The notes beneath the pieces are model-generated. The model was not told the DNA's origin and did not search any database. It was given only the letters and a program-made list of their open reading frames with translations. Below, piece by piece: positions 9,462-16,441 of a DNA stretch of 56,109 bases. The DNA comes from a bacterium. GTDB lineage: Bacteria > UBP6 > UBA1177. Location: assembly GCA_017961325.1 (NCBI GenBank), contig JAGCXM010000044.1, positions 1-56,109 of the forward strand, given 5' to 3'. Every line of letters begins with the position of its first letter. Position 1 is the first letter of the stretch. The translations under genes and the position numbers were made by a program.

Positions 9462-12400
9462 CTATTTTTTAGTGCAGGAGACATCGTCGAAATAGGTAAG
9501 AAGGCTGTCGTTCTTTGCATCGAAAAGAACGATCTGGACATCGGTGTCATCGGCATTCAGCTTGAAAGCCAAAGTAAGCTTGGTCCAGTCGTTTGAATTG
9601 ATGTTGAACCAGAAGCCCGTTTGCGGGTAGTAGCCGCTGCTGTTGCCTTCAACATTTGTTGAGTAGACTCTGAAACCGGCACTTGCCGCCGTGCCTTTTG
9701 CATAGGCTTCGCATGTATAGTTTCCGGCTGTCAAAGCTATAGACTGGGTCGTAAAGCGTTTATTGTCACTTGTGATACTCTTAAGCATCAGTGCGTGAGT
9801 TCCGGTCCTTACGTTGTCCGTCACTATGCTTACGTTGCTGTCAGAGATATTGGTTTTAGTGCCGTTCCAGTCTGTCATTCCGTTTTCAAAGCTGCCGTTT
9901 CTGATTATCGGAGCCGCTTCGCATTCGTGTGTCGTCGTGTTGCACTCTTCAGTCGTCCCGCAGTCGGAATTGCTTATGCATTTTCCGTCTTTTGCAACGC
10001 AGGTTCCCGTTTCTTTGGAACATTCCTCGTATTCCTCGCATGAAACTCCTTCGCACGGATCGCCGTCAACACATTCATGCGTGGTTGTATCGCAGGTTTC
10101 TTCAGGATCAGGGCAGTCGGCTTTTGAAGCGCAGAAGCCGTATTTTGCTATGCATTCGCCTGTCGCAGGTTCGCATTCTGACCAGCTTGTGTCGCATGTC
10201 GAATTGCCGCAGTTATCGATGACATAATCTTTTGCAAATCTCGGAAGTATCTTGGAATAGCTGAAAGTGTAGGCCAGAACGCCGCTGATTTCGGTAAAAT
10301 GAGTGCCGACAGCGGGATCTTTGAACGAATAAAAGTCATCGTCTACTTTGAGCCCGTTAGCAACGCCGAAAACATGATAAGAATCGGCCTCCTCGGTGAC
10401 ATCTACGTTTTCAACTCTGACTAAAACACCGTTGTAGGTATCTTTCTGACTGCCGCCGTTTTTGACTTTCGCGGGATCGACGGTTACGAAATCCGGAACG
10501 CCCTTGTTTGCCTTGATGATTTCGACGCTTTCAACATTCGCAATCTGAAGCTGGTCGTAATAAGTCATAACTTTTCCGGAAACTCTGACTTTGTCGCCTA
10601 CGTTTACCTCCAAGGTCGATTTGTAGACGTAAATTCCGCTGAACTGTTCTTTCAAAACGGGATCTTGGTCGGCAGGATCTACCTGCATGAAGAAATTGTT
10701 GCTCTTGTAAGCAGTAACGATACCTTCTACCTTTACTGTAGTTCCTTCCGCAATGTTTTTTTGTTTGATTTCATAAATCGTAGTCGCAGCAATATCGCAT
10801 GCATCGCCTATGCCGTTTCCGTCGCTATCTTCCTGATCCGTATTCTTGTCGAACGGGCAGTTGTCGAGCGCATTGAGAATGCCGTCATCGTCCTTATCGG
10901 CAGGATTCGGGGTCTTTTCGCACTCATCGCCTTTTTTAAGCGGACACGGATCGCATGCATCGCCTTTGCCGTCACCGTCAGAATCAGCCTGTTTGTCGTT
11001 ATCTACCGGACGGATCGGGTTAAAAATATCGGGGCAGTTGTCTTCGCTGTCAGCGATTCCGTCACCGTCTTTGTCTCCTTCTTTCGGACCGGAGTAAGGA
11101 CGCGACTCGTCCTGGCTTCTCGTACGCTGCGGCACGCATGTAGGTTCGTTATCCGGAGTTTCGCAGTAGAAAAGTTTATATTGACTGCTGTTGTTGCTCT
11201 GGAACGCAGAGAGGGTCATCCCCGTTTCTTTGACGCACACTTTTTTGTCGGTATCGCAGACGGAAATCGCTTCGCATTCGTTGGCCGTATCAAGCGCAGT
11301 CACGACATTTTCATCGCCGTAGAATACCTGACCGCCTCTCAGAACGAGAGCGACCTTCTTTTCATGTCCGGCGATAACGGCTCTGTAGGGATTTTCCGCA
11401 CCTTTCGCGTCAAAAACGACGATATCGCCGACAAGTCCCGGGCGGATCGCGCCTGTGACGTCGAGGATCCTGAGTGCAGCAGCATTGTTTACGGTTGCCA
11501 TCTGCCAGATTTCATAGTCGGAGAAAGTTTTGTTGAAGTGGTTTTTGTTGAGGTAATCGACGCACGCAAGTTCACGGAGCATGTGCATCGAACCGCTTGC
11601 GACCCAGTCGGTGCCGAGACCGATGAGGACGCCCTGATTCTTGAGCATCGTGACGGGTGCCGTGTTTCCGTAAAGCGAAATATTTGTCCTGGCCGACCAG
11701 ATTATCGCTGTTTTGCTGTCGGCAAGTTCTTTTCCGTCATCAGCGATGATTCCGACGGAGTGGACGAACGCCGAATTTTCCTTCGCGAGGTCGATTCCGC
11801 CATCCTGTCTTCCGGTGAGACAGAGAAATTCGTTTCGGGCAGCTTTGTTGATACCTTCCGAAACATGCGGAAGATAGCAGTCGGCCTGAAGAACGCTCTC
11901 CTTGTCTATTTTGCTGTAACCGCAGCCGCTGTCCAGCATGAATCCGTTCGAATCGCCGAGCGGGAAGGTCTGGTATTGGACATCCATTCCGCCGAGTCCT
12001 AAAGTATCGACGAAATTCTGGTCGATGTTTCTCAAAAATCCCTTTGCGCCGCCGCTTCCGGCAATCGCAAGAGTTCCGGCCATAAGCTGACGAAGTTCCG
12101 CCCATTGCTTCTGTGCCGCAGAAGCACTTCCCGGAACATCGAGTTTCGTGTGACCGTTTTTGCCCCTTCTCCAGTCATGTCTGTGGTCGAATCTTTCGTC
12201 TTTCCAGTCACCCGGCTTGTTGTTGACGTAACCGAGATGATCGTGTCCGTTTATCAAAGCGGGGGTTACTGTCGCACCAGGACAGTTTACGACCGTTGCA
12301 CCGGCAGCCTCTGCCGAGCAGTCGCAGCCTGCGCAGACTATGAACCCGGCTTCAGAAATCAGCACTTCGCCGCCGATATACGCCTTGTTCCCTGAGAGGA

Positions 12401-12830
12401 TGTTTCCTCTGATAAGTTTCGCGCCGTTTCCTGGAGTAACATCGCAGGTTTTGCCCGACAATGCCGGAAGTTCGGCACACTGAACCGTTTCAGGTGCGTC
12501 TTCGGCATCGATCACTGTAGTATCGTTGTCGGTATCGTCTTCATCTTCAGTATCGTTGGTGTCGTCGTTATCGGGTTTGTCGTTATCGGGTTTGTCGGTA
12601 TCACCTTCGTTTTCAGTATCAGCGGTGTCGTCGTTATCAGACTTGTCGGTATCCGTTGCATCGTCTCCATCCGGTTCATCGGTATCGGAAAGTTCATCAC
12701 TATCCGTCTCTTCACTGTCTGTCTGATCGTCGTTGTCGATGATTTCTTCTTCATTTTTTCCGCCGTTGTCATCGCAAGCTGCAAAGAATAGAATCGCAAA
12801 CAGCACAAAAAACGCGAGAAATTTTTTCAT
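9462..12830 (-). CDS. Modular amidohydrolase lipoprotein (TSP3, OB-fold, Cys-rich, carbohydrate-binding-like domains)
   Basis: The start ATG has GGAGG 7 nt upstream. The protein has 1122 residues. A signal peptide ends in a lipobox at FAACDD (Cys about 19), and an Asp/Thr-rich linker runs to about residue 100. An amidohydrolase domain follows at about 110-530. It shows the metal-binding H-x-H in INGHDHLGY, a later metal Asp candidate in [11 protein letters not shown], and a C-terminal [11 protein letters not shown] strand. Thrombospondin type-3 calcium repeats ([16 protein letters not shown]) occupy about 575-665, an OB-fold resembling extracellular nuclease-associated domains about 680-775, and Cys-rich EGF-like repeats about 875-985. 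The last domain ([13 protein letters not shown]) resembles CBM4/9-type carbohydrate-binding modules. The substrate is unknown. Surface exposure is inferred. Confidence 0.85.
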
Positions 12831-13019: not shown

Positions 13020-13628
13020 ATGGAAAGGATTTCAGTCCATCTAAACAATCCTGAGCGCAGGGCGGTAGACAAGGCGGCAGGCGTGCTTGAAAGCGGCGGG
13101 GTAGTGCTTGTTCCTGGCGATACGTCGTATCTTCTGGCGGTGAAAATCGGCAAAAAAAACGCTCTTGACAAGCTCAACCGGATAAAACAGACCAAGAAAA
13201 GAAAGTTTTATTCTCTGATTTTCAAGGATCTGAGCGACATTTCACGTTACGCAGACATCGACAACCGCCATTTCAACCTGCTGAAACGCTGTCTGCCGGG
13301 AGCTTACACGTTCATTCTGTCGGCGAGCCGCGAAATTCCGAAAATCATGCTTGAAAACCGTAAAGAAATCGGCATAAGGATTCCGGAAAACCGCTTCTTG
13401 AACGATCTTGTCGAGGCTGTAGGCGAACCAATCGTCGTTTCGACCGCATCGAACGAGGAGGGTGAGGAGTTCTGCGACCCGGATGAAGATGCTCCGGACT
13501 GGCTCGGATTCGTTGATCTTCTTGTCGACGGCGGATATATAGCAATGGATCTCACGACCATCGTCCAGCTTTCTGGAGACGAATACGAAATCGTCCGCGA
13601 AGGCAAGGGAGATGTGGATATTTTTTAG
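13020..13628 (+). CDS. Sua5/YciO/YrdC-family protein (threonylcarbamoyl-AMP synthase-like)
   Basis: The 202-residue protein has a YrdC-like fold. It starts with AAGVLESGGVVLVPGDTSY, then K-x-R-x(6) basic residues (RIKQTKKRKFYSLIF), LPGAYTFIL, and IGIRIPENRFLNDLV. These match the family that makes threonylcarbamoyl-AMP for the t6A37 tRNA modification. The KRKFYSLIF wording is closer to the YciO subgroup, so it may not be the main TsaC enzyme. AGAGG lies 7 nt before the ATG. It starts a short plus-strand operon with the nitroreductase 9 nt downstream, divergent from the modular lipoprotein. Confidence 0.8.
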   Translation: MERISVHLNNPERRAVDKAAGVLESGGVVLVPGDTSYLLAVKIGKKNALDKLNRIKQTKKRKFYSLIFKDLSDISRYADIDNRHFNLLKRCLPGAYTFILSASREIPKIMLENRKEIGIRIPENRFLNDLVEAVGEPIVVSTASNEEGEEFCDPDEDAPDWLGFVDLLVDGGYIAMDLTTIVQLSGDEYEIVREGKGDVDIF

Positions 13629-13637
13629 GAGGAAACA

Positions 13638-14156
13638 ATGAATTTCATCGAACTCGCAAAAAAACGCTACTCGGTGCGCAGCTATTCAAGCAGAAAAGTG
13701 GAAAAGGAAATTCTCAACAAAATTCTCGAAGCAGGAAACATCGCCCCTACTGCCAAAAACCAGCAGCCGCAAAGAATTTACGTTGTAGAGGATACGGCTA
13801 TGCTCGCAAAGCTCGACACTCTGACACCGTGCCGCTACAACGCGCCGACAGTTCTTATTTTTACCTACGACACAGACGACGACTGGAAAAACCCTAATGA
13901 AGCTGGAATTCATTCCGGAATCGAGGACGTCAGCATTGTCGCTACCCACATCATGCTTCAGGCGGCTGAACTCGGGCTCGGAACAACCTGGTGCAATATG
14001 TTCGGAAACACCGCGCTCGAAGAAGCCTTCGACCTCCCGGCAAACGAAAAGTCTGTTCTCTTCATGGATCTCGGCTATGCGGCGGAAGACGCTGAACCGT
14101 CACCCGGGCACACCGAGAAAAAACCTCTTGCCGATACGGTCAGATACCTGAAATAG
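13638..14156 (+). CDS. Nitroreductase-family flavoprotein
   Basis: The 172-residue protein begins FIELAKKRYSVRSY, the N-terminal FMN-binding signature of the family, followed by EAGNIAPTAKNQQP. LGLGTTWCNMF and the C-terminal PGHTEKKPLADTVRYL also fit small nitroreductases. Members reduce nitro compounds, quinones or enones with NAD(P)H. The physiological substrate cannot be told. AGGAGG precedes the ATG, and the gene follows the YrdC-family gene by 9 nt. Confidence 0.9.
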   Translation: MNFIELAKKRYSVRSYSSRKVEKEILNKILEAGNIAPTAKNQQPQRIYVVEDTAMLAKLDTLTPCRYNAPTVLIFTYDTDDDWKNPNEAGIHSGIEDVSIVATHIMLQAAELGLGTTWCNMFGNTALEEAFDLPANEKSVLFMDLGYAAEDAEPSPGHTEKKPLADTVRYLK

Positions 14157-14293
14157 TAAGTCAAAACGAAAAAATCATCTGTTCCGGCAGTTTTTATCAT
14201 CCTGTTTTCCATTTCAAATTTTTAACAAATCCTTTTTAGCGGGAAACGGTAACGCTTTTCAGAGAATTTTTCCGTTCAGAAATGCTTTTCCGC

Positions 14294-14340
14294 TATAATC
14301 CCTCATAATTCCTTTAATTTTACGCAAATTTGGCTATAAT
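14294..14340 (+). promoter_or_regulatory. Two candidate -10 boxes upstream of the ATPase-like/CPBP pair
   Basis: TATAAT occurs at 14294-14299 and again at 14335-14340 in an AT-rich gap of 239 bp. Neither has a strong -35 box; a weak TTTAAT lies about 16 nt before the second. The same GGCTATAAT wording recurs upstream of pepT (16502-16510). Nothing else recognisable was found in this gap. Confidence 0.45.
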
Positions 14341-14395
14341 TTCCCGTTTTGTTTGTGAACGTTTGACATTTTTTTAATAATTTCAGGTGCTTATA

Positions 14396-15799
14396 ATGAG
14401 AAAACTCAATTTTTCGGTTCATTTCTTTCTTTATTCGCTTCTTGCCTACATTTTTTATATTATTTATTTCGTTTTCATAAAAAAGGCTGATTATTTTTTC
14501 GGGCTTTACTACTTTACTCCGGCATATGTATTTGTTTTCATTAAATTATTTTCGACAGGCATTAAAAAATTGTCGTGGGTTGCATCATTTGTTTTTATCC
14601 CTTTTGCAATCTCGGTTTTTCTCACGTTTGCCGATCATCCGTTTCAGGGCTGGGAAGTTTCCGGCTTCATTCCGGTTGCTGTTCTCGCCTCCTATCTTTT
14701 CAAAAGTTCGGGCGGTTCGCCTACGCCGCTCGGAATCAGGGTTCTGCCCAAAATAATAAAGTGGTTTTTCGCTGTTGTACTTGTTTTCGGCGTGATTCAT
14801 TTTATCAAAACCCGTTCAATAAACGACGCTCTTCTTCTTGTCGTTACGCTCTGGACACCCGCTCCGATAGCTGCCGTGACGGCGCTTTTCATCAATTTCA
14901 TAATCACCACGACGGCGGCTTCGGTACTTCTCAACAACATGAAATTTTTCAACAACGAAGCAAAAATTTCGCGCCTGATTTTCGACACGGACGCTTTTCT
15001 GAATGTTCCTCACCTCAGTCTTTCGGGAATCGAAACCGTGCCGGAACTGAAAAAAGAGGATTTCATAAGAATGATTGACAGGCTGAACAAGGCTGCCGCA
15101 GACAATCCGGAACAATCGGAAAACATCAAGAAAAACAAATACTTTTCTCACAGCTTTGAAGACGGAAAAACGCTGACTATGGCTCCTTTGCATTTTCTGG
15201 TTTCTGAAAAACACTGTTCACACGAAGGAATTGAAATTCCGCTCAAAGATACTGACAGCGAATATGTCGCCCTTGCCGAAGACGGTAAAATCATCGGTTA
15301 TTACGCCATAGACAAGGTAAAACCGACTGAAAACGCCGCATTTCTGGAACTTTTCGAAAAAAAATACGGAATAAAATCGGTAATAGTCAACCCTGTGAAG
15401 CCTCAGCTTTGGAAAAGCATCGAAACAAAGAAGTCGTTCGACGAAATCGAACTCACGGAGAGAGATATTGTAATTACCGATAATCACAGGGAAAATATTT
15501 CTTCTTCCATAGAAGCCCGCTGGGGCGGAACCGATATTGTCAAAGGTGACATTTACATCACGAAACCTTTGGTGAAGACGCTCTTTCATTTCATCATCGT
15601 TTCAAGAAAAATCCCTGAAAAAATAGTAAAAGGTGCCGCCGTCTGCTCGATTCCCTTTCTTTTCCAGCTTTTTGCGGCCTCTTTCGACATATCAGCTCCG
15701 CAGATATCTTCGGTCGCGCTCCTGATGTCGTTTTTCATGATCGTAATTTACATTTTTTTCGTCAAGCCTGTGTCTAAAAATTCGCTTTCGGATAAATAG
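14396..15799 (+). CDS. Degenerate P-type-ATPase-like membrane protein lacking catalytic motifs
   Basis: The ATG at 14396 is chosen because AGG lies 8 nt upstream; a GTG three codons earlier is the alternative. The 467-residue protein has N-terminal membrane helices. A helix with TPAP (about residue 154) stands where metal ATPases have CPC. After 43 residues comes LIFDTDAF (Asp about 197), where P-type ATPases have FDKTGT at nearly the same distance. Later, DGKIIGYYAIDKVKPTENA (about 296-314) matches the segment before TGD. GGTDIVKGDIYITK (about 377-390) matches the GTDVAKESADI segment after GDGxND, and two C-terminal helices follow. The KTGT, TGES, TGD and GDGxND motifs are all absent or altered, so ion pumping is unlikely. 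TAG|ATG abutment with the protease gene suggests a joint role. Confidence 0.7.
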   Translation: MRKLNFSVHFFLYSLLAYIFYIIYFVFIKKADYFFGLYYFTPAYVFVFIKLFSTGIKKLSWVASFVFIPFAISVFLTFADHPFQGWEVSGFIPVAVLASYLFKSSGGSPTPLGIRVLPKIIKWFFAVVLVFGVIHFIKTRSINDALLLVVTLWTPAPIAAVTALFINFIITTTAASVLLNNMKFFNNEAKISRLIFDTDAFLNVPHLSLSGIETVPELKKEDFIRMIDRLNKAAADNPEQSENIKKNKYFSHSFEDGKTLTMAPLHFLVSEKHCSHEGIEIPLKDTDSEYVALAEDGKIIGYYAIDKVKPTENAAFLELFEKKYGIKSVIVNPVKPQLWKSIETKKSFDEIELTERDIVITDNHRENISSSIEARWGGTDIVKGDIYITKPLVKTLFHFIIVSRKIPEKIVKGAAVCSIPFLFQLFAASFDISAPQISSVALLMSFFMIVIYIFFVKPVSKNSLSDK

Positions 15800-16441
15800 A
15801 TGAAAGAAAAAAAATACTCGAAACTCATAGTTCCGTTTCTGCTTCTGGCAGCTATATCGGTTCTGTCATTTTATATGAACAAATACCGCATCGGAGCGAG
15901 ACACTTCATCTTTCCGGCGGCACTTTTTGTTCTGCCGCTTGCTTTTGACGGAAAATTCAGGCCTAAAGACATCTCTAAACCCTCAAAAGAAGGTCTTTTT
16001 CTGTTTTTGTGGGTGACTTTGGCGGTTATTGTGTTCTATCCTCCGTTATTTTTCGCATACAATCTCGGTTTCATGCACCGCAACATGGTTACCCCGGCTT
16101 CATCTGAACTCGTGCAGGCCGTGATCAAAGGCTTGATTGCGATTGCTGTTGCCGCGGTACCGGAGGAATTCTTTTTCCGAGGATATCTTCAGGAGCATGT
16201 TTTTGCTGAGTTCGACAGAAAAATTCTGAAAACGGTTTCGCTCAAAAACCTTTTTACCTCAATTCTTTTCGGTCTTGTCCACGCTTTGGCTTTTCTCGAC
16301 GCAACACGCGCGGCGACATTCTTTCCGTCGCTTTTGTTCGGGCTTTTCACCGAAAAGAGCAGGGGACGTATTTTTTACAGTATCTCGTTTCATGTAGTTT
16401 CAAACATTCTGGCGTTCATACTCTGGACTTTCGTAAAATAG
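15800..16441 (+). CDS. CPBP-family intramembrane glutamic protease
   Basis: The 213-residue membrane protein has the three CPBP/Rce1 motifs: EEFFFRG (about residues 121-127), FGLVHAL (about 157) and HVVSN (about 197). The Glu pair and the two His are the expected catalytic or structural residues. In bacteria the family includes CAAX-like proteases, bacteriocin-immunity proteins and the C-terminal-signal-processing 'myxosortases' of Myxococcota. The subgroup here cannot be assigned by eye. Its ATG follows the TAG of the ATPase-like gene directly, so the two are translationally coupled. Confidence 0.88.
   Translation: MKEKKYSKLIVPFLLLAAISVLSFYMNKYRIGARHFIFPAALFVLPLAFDGKFRPKDISKPSKEGLFLFLWVTLAVIVFYPPLFFAYNLGFMHRNMVTPASSELVQAVIKGLIAIAVAAVPEEFFFRGYLQEHVFAEFDRKILKTVSLKNLFTSILFGLVHALAFLDATRAATFFPSLLFGLFTEKSRGRIFYSISFHVVSNILAFILWTFVK

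Follow-up and report, generated by a model that had tools for sequence, protein, structure and literature searches.

The window, the whole 56,109-nucleotide stretch of DNA analysed here, carries on its forward strand a gene for YciO, a TsaC/Sua5 paralogue (13020–13628), which is the order-wide upstream neighbour of the gene under study. Between the two lies a nitroreductase-family gene (13638–14156). The gene under study (14396–15799) encodes a predicted pseudo P-type ATPase of 467 residues, with a P1B-like architecture of eight helices and no actuator (A) domain. The following gene (15800–16441) encodes a CPBP/Rce1-like intramembrane protease of 213 residues, which is myxosortase-like. The reading frame of the pseudo-pump is open, and its TAG stop codon (15797–15799) abuts the ATG of the CPBP gene at 15800.

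The N-terminal part of the pseudo-pump (residues 1–100; 14396–14695) contains four helices, located by AlphaFold at residues 6–29, 42–54, 60–78 and 86–99, and carries the invariant pair W86-E87. From their count and order, these helices probably correspond to MA, MB, M1 and M2 of P1B pumps. A short loop with an invariant PL (residues 101–115; 14696–14740) occupies the position of the actuator (TGES) domain. It leads to M3 and M4 (residues 116–175; 14741–14920), where WTPAPI (residues 153–158) stands in place of CPC. The degenerate cytosolic P/N head (residues 190–390; 14963–15565) contains the dead phosphorylation site IFDTDAF (residues 195–201; 14978–14998) at the FDKTGT position and an invariant GYY (residues 301–303), and it has no TGD, GDGxND or HP. 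M5 and M6 (residues 392–455; 15569–15760) carry a conserved S-x-PF and PQ. The eight helices would thus fit the MA, MB, M1–M6 plan of P1B pumps, with a one-to-one assignment that is tentative.

The first-pass annotation recognised the pump layout from a series of motifs, all of which are present: TPAP at residues 154–157, FDTD at residues 196–199, EDGKIIGYYAIDKVKP and GGTDIVKGD. The 43-residue spacing that it reported between T154 and D197 is also correct; in genuine P1B pumps of the window's genus, the distance from CPC to DKTGT is 44 residues. GGTDIVKGD holds as a motif only in part, because G377 and D385 are invariant, whereas GTD is not.

Comparison of 23 homologues from eight genera reveals the extent of the catalytic loss. 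As described for the window protein, KTGT, TGD and GDGxND are absent, and they are absent from all 23. The N-domain HP and the cysteines of CPC are likewise gone in every homologue, and the latter site reads SPAP, TPAP or variants. The reported loss of TGES is real; however, it is not a mutation of the motif, since the whole A domain is missing. In pumps, about 110 residues occupy this position. In the AlphaFold models, about 16 residues are found there, between the fourth N-terminal helix and M3. The loss of DKTGT is incomplete: KTGT has disappeared, whereas its aspartate is retained as D197 in 22 of the 23 homologues. The preceding F196 is invariant, and a DxD at this site is seen in the window and in family f1, but is not kept in family f3. 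Invariant positions of the clade are W86-E87, P111-L112, GYY 301–303, D357, G377, D385, P420 and P435. Going by established P1B signatures, M5 and M6 appear to lack the metal-ligand residues of the known P1B classes. Having neither an actuator domain nor any catalytic motif, the pseudo-pump is predicted to be unable to run an ATP-driven transport cycle.

The likeness of the 467-residue protein to P-type ATPases, which had been proposed from motifs, goes beyond chance in both profile and structure comparisons. Pfam gave no meaningful family for the window protein or any of the 23 homologues, and PDB sequence searches with the protein and with the family profile returned only chance matches; the case for homology therefore rests on profile-profile and fold comparison. 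By hhalign, the family aligned with 49 diverse P1B ATPases at E=5.9e-7 over residues 115–462; the 339 collinear columns begin at M3 and run to the end. Control families, one reversed and eight block-shuffled, gave E values of at least 0.05. Against 23 pumps of the clade, the profile-profile E value was 1e-4. The P-type ATPase model TIGR01494 matched 16 of the 23 homologues (best E=1e-4), and those matches with coordinates listed are all in one register. The window protein alone scored 12.4 bits (E=0.039), and the best homologue listed reached about 21 bits, below the curated cut-off of 62.3 bits. Beyond its own members, the family profile recovered from 386 genomes a single genuine CadA/ZntA-type pump, for which the alignment (E=7.6e-4) lies at M3-M4-DKTGT in the correct register, and one further marginal, non-specific match to an unrelated ORF (E=0.009).

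Structure prediction, proposed earlier as a check against CopA and ZntA, recovered the P-type ATPase fold. AlphaFold modelled the window protein with a pLDDT of 72.9 and a 31%-identical homologue with 66.3. Searched against the PDB, both models matched P-type ATPases exclusively at E<=1e-3 (CopA, ZntA, KdpB, ATP7B), and the homologue model additionally matched the isolated ATP-binding domains of CopA and CopB. With moderate pLDDT and low global TM-scores (~0.3–0.4), the relative placing of the domains in these models is uncertain. A likeness produced merely by membrane composition, in a protein that is no relative of P-type ATPases, would agree with the missing Pfam and PDB sequence matches. 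We consider this extremely improbable, given a profile-profile E value of 6e-7 against at least 0.05 for the shuffled controls and two fold searches in which P-type ATPases alone were significant. The sequence profiles and models together confirm the protein as a diverged relative of the P1B-type ATPases.

Throughout one order of the candidate phylum UBP6, selection maintains an intact pseudo-pump. All 25 genomes of this order have it, two of them as fragments at contig ends, and it was not found in the three genomes of f4, another family of the phylum. Among nine members of the window's genus, 36 pairwise comparisons gave dN/dS values of 0.06–0.12. The loss of every catalytic motif could also mark a pump gene that is decaying locally into a pseudogene. 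No relative with an intact DKTGT, the sign of local decay named beforehand in the first-pass annotation, occurs among the homologues; the frames are open in almost all of them, and identical losses recur in eight genera. On the strength of the purifying selection and the order-wide presence we rejected decay, whose probability we regard as close to nil.

We also rejected the pseudo-pump as a regulator or subunit of a resident pump. Eight carrier genomes (G015–G019, G022–G024) have no other match to TIGR01494, and thus no recognisable real P-type ATPase, so the pseudo-pump is unlikely to be the partner of an active one. The model was positive in 14 of 14 control genomes, and the genomes behind this count are drafts of 65–95% completeness, six of the eight being at least 91% complete.

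Of 23 genomes measured, 14 have yciO directly upstream of the pseudo-pump gene, at a distance of 14–29 bp. In eight more, the window included, the two genes share a contig and are separated by one to several others. The two genes are probably co-transcribed. In f4, neither a pump nor a pseudo-pump was found beside yciO. We assigned YciO by PDB similarity, with E values of 7e-44 for YciO (1k7j), 5e-12 for threonylcarbamoyl-AMP synthase and 1e-4 for YrdC/TsaC. TIGR00057 is above its cut-off for the product of 13020–13628, and this model cannot separate YciO from TsaC/Sua5. A recent analysis makes the case that YciO does not function as TsaC does and is linked to RNA metabolism (PMC12506659).

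We notice that the stretch separating yciO from the pseudo-pump (13629–14395 in the window; loci L136–L140) is an insertion hot spot within the genus. Depending on the genome, it holds the nitroreductase, an AbiE-like pair, a helix-turn-helix protein with a protein of ~680 residues, or a cluster of ~10 kb. The pseudo-pump and CPBP genes remain together despite these insertions. In other genera, a TPR-repeat protein of ~1430 residues precedes yciO (L037:876–5174, L038:3058–7368, L041:3060–7370, L045:3031–7359), and at three of these four loci a guaA-like gene lies before it. At the corresponding position in the window, a large lipoprotein-like gene is found on the opposite strand (9462–12830). 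Its 1122-residue product has a long Asp/Thr-rich linker, an amidohydrolase-like stretch and thrombospondin-type-3-like repeats, and its C-terminal end has no sorting tail.

Downstream, the coupling to a CPBP protease that the first-pass annotation had put forward is true as gene order within one genus and does not extend to the rest of the order. A survey of the gene pair in related genomes found it throughout the window's genus, with a gap that ranged from −1 to 23 bp across the 13 genomes in which it was measured. CPBP is likewise single-copy in the seven remaining genera of the order, but lies away from the pseudo-pump. Named by reading their sequences, the next genes encode a HIT-family protein in three other genera of the window's family, an adenylate-kinase-like protein in f2 and unrelated proteins in f3.

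The CPBP protease itself scored 50.4 bits against PF02517 (cut-off 22.4), and its motifs EExxxR (EEFFFR) and HxxxN (HVVSN) are intact, as had been noted. Against the myxosortase model Mrt_core (NF040914), it scored 80.9 bits (E=6e-23) and its homologues 84 bits, below the cut-off of 100 bits. The gene is single-copy in 28 of 28 genomes of the phylum, the window's genome included, and the f4 genomes have it without the pseudo-pump.

A search for proteins with shared C-terminal tails, suggested as a further check, found such tails in genomes of the order. They are carried by a multicopy family of proteins of ~1000 residues (loci L141–L156; G000:C42:62833–65826 in the window's genome), and consist of an invariant cysteine, a hydrophobic transmembrane helix and a basic end. 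The MYXO-CTERM model TIGR03901 exceeded its cut-off of 20 bits in five of the 28 genomes, all belonging to f3, and remained sub-threshold in f1. With a tail profile, each of the 25 order genomes gave tails at E<=0.5, several of them only weakly, and f4 gave doubtful matches only. The ~1000-residue family has 4–16 matches per genome in the order and none in f4. The idea that CPBP is a C-terminal sorting enzyme has therefore gained support from its myxosortase-family scores, its intact motifs and the occurrence of MYXO-CTERM-like tails alongside it. Given the Mrt scores and the tails, a myxosortase-type sorting system in UBP6 is likely, in which CPBP probably trims the MYXO-CTERM-like tails of surface proteins. 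Apart from gene adjacency, we found no link from the pseudo-pump to tail sorting.

Homology, catalytic loss, purifying selection, order-wide conservation and the preferred position beside yciO are the firm ground from which we infer a function and a partner. We propose, with reasonable though incomplete confidence, that the protein is a P1B-like pseudoenzyme serving as a non-pumping membrane scaffold or receptor, with YciO as its first candidate partner. This descendant of a P1B pump would retain the membrane part with its eight helices and a reduced form of the P/N head without pumping. Anchored in the membrane, it may bind a soluble partner or ligand through the cytosolic head (GYY, D357, G377, D385). 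The proposal draws on gene order and on the parts that are missing. YciO would be the first candidate for binding the head, since its gene usually neighbours that of the pseudo-pump and is probably transcribed together with it. In the window's genus, CPBP would follow the pseudo-pump by position rather than by a proven joint function. At D197, some residual chemistry may persist.

The retained membrane domain could instead work as an ATP-free facilitator or channel for an ion or lipid, or as a metal-binding sensor. All eight helices are kept, with conserved W86-E87, S73, P155, S418-x-P420-F421 and P435; however, CPC and the known P1B ligand residues in M4–M6 are absent, and the cytosolic head is also rich in invariant positions, so that we hold this to be possible but rather doubtful. 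We consider it unlikely that the pseudo-pump and CPBP form one working module for sensing, chaperoning or sorting, as first suggested. The genes do abut throughout the genus, even where other genes have been inserted upstream of the pseudo-pump, CPBP is the only copy in the genome, and proteins with MYXO-CTERM-like tails exist as targets which, like the pseudo-pump, occur in the order and not clearly in f4. Yet the two genes are apart in seven other genera, f4 has CPBP without a pseudo-pump, and the co-occurrence of tails and pseudo-pump amounts to a single split between the order and f4.

A more specific idea is that an ATP-free scaffold acts as a membrane-helix chaperone, binding the C-terminal MYXO-CTERM-like transmembrane tails of surface proteins and presenting them to the adjacent myxosortase, much like a passive counterpart of the P5A helix dislocase; we give this very little credence. 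The head might also bind a nucleotide or be phosphorylated at D197 and thereby act as a switch. The invariant F196, the near-invariant D197 and the DxD of the window and f1 would fit such a role, whereas no homologue has the remainder of DKTGT, TGD, GDGxND or the N-domain HP, and DxD is not kept in f3, which makes a switch quite improbable.

The non-pumping scaffold or receptor that we favour would still share much with P1B ATPases such as CopA (4bbj), ZntA (4umw) and ATP7B: the number and order of helices, the proline kink in M4, the M5–M6 end, a P-domain core with F-D at the phosphorylation site, the N/P head and 339 collinear columns. Unlike them, it has no A domain, CPC, DKTGT, HP, TGD or GDGxND, and its N domain is short. 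To our knowledge, pseudoenzymes are well known among kinases and hardly described for bacterial P-type ATPases. Our search of the open literature, outside which an earlier description is possible, found no A-domain-less P-type ATPase family. For degenerate P-type ATPases, it returned only point-mutated pumps and cyclase P4 domains of apicomplexans.

The guanylate cyclase beta of Plasmodium contains a degenerate P4-ATPase domain that has lost most signature residues (PMC6592433). It resembles the pseudo-pump as a degenerate P-type ATPase in a protein with another job; however, it is eukaryotic, P4-type and fused to a cyclase, whereas the pseudo-pump is bacterial, stand-alone, P1B-like and has its A domain deleted. 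Other P-type ATPases carry a single point change in DKTGT and are recognisable pumps (PMC3896382). They share with the pseudo-pump a divergence at the defining motif, whereas the pseudo-pump clade has lost all motifs and a whole domain. A clade that keeps the membrane and head domains of a pump, often in genomes without a real one, suggests that this scaffold can serve a non-pumping role, and offers a natural experiment on the positions that this role requires.

The neighbouring protease resembles the myxosortases MrtX, MrtC and MrtP, which act with MYXO-CTERM (PMC11980579), in its Mrt-family scores, EExxxR and HxxxN, and the UBP6 tails are MYXO-CTERM-like in their invariant cysteine, transmembrane helix and basic end. 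It differs from the known myxosortases in scoring below the NCBIfam cut-offs and in belonging to UBP6, and the likeness concerns the neighbour, not the pseudo-pump. The window comes from this candidate phylum instead of the Myxococcota, the setting named in the first-pass annotation, and a probable myxosortase/MYXO-CTERM-like sorting system is placed outside that phylum. UBP6 is a little-known phylum of rumen and sediment, and close relatives of the window's genome include rumen and gut metagenome bins.
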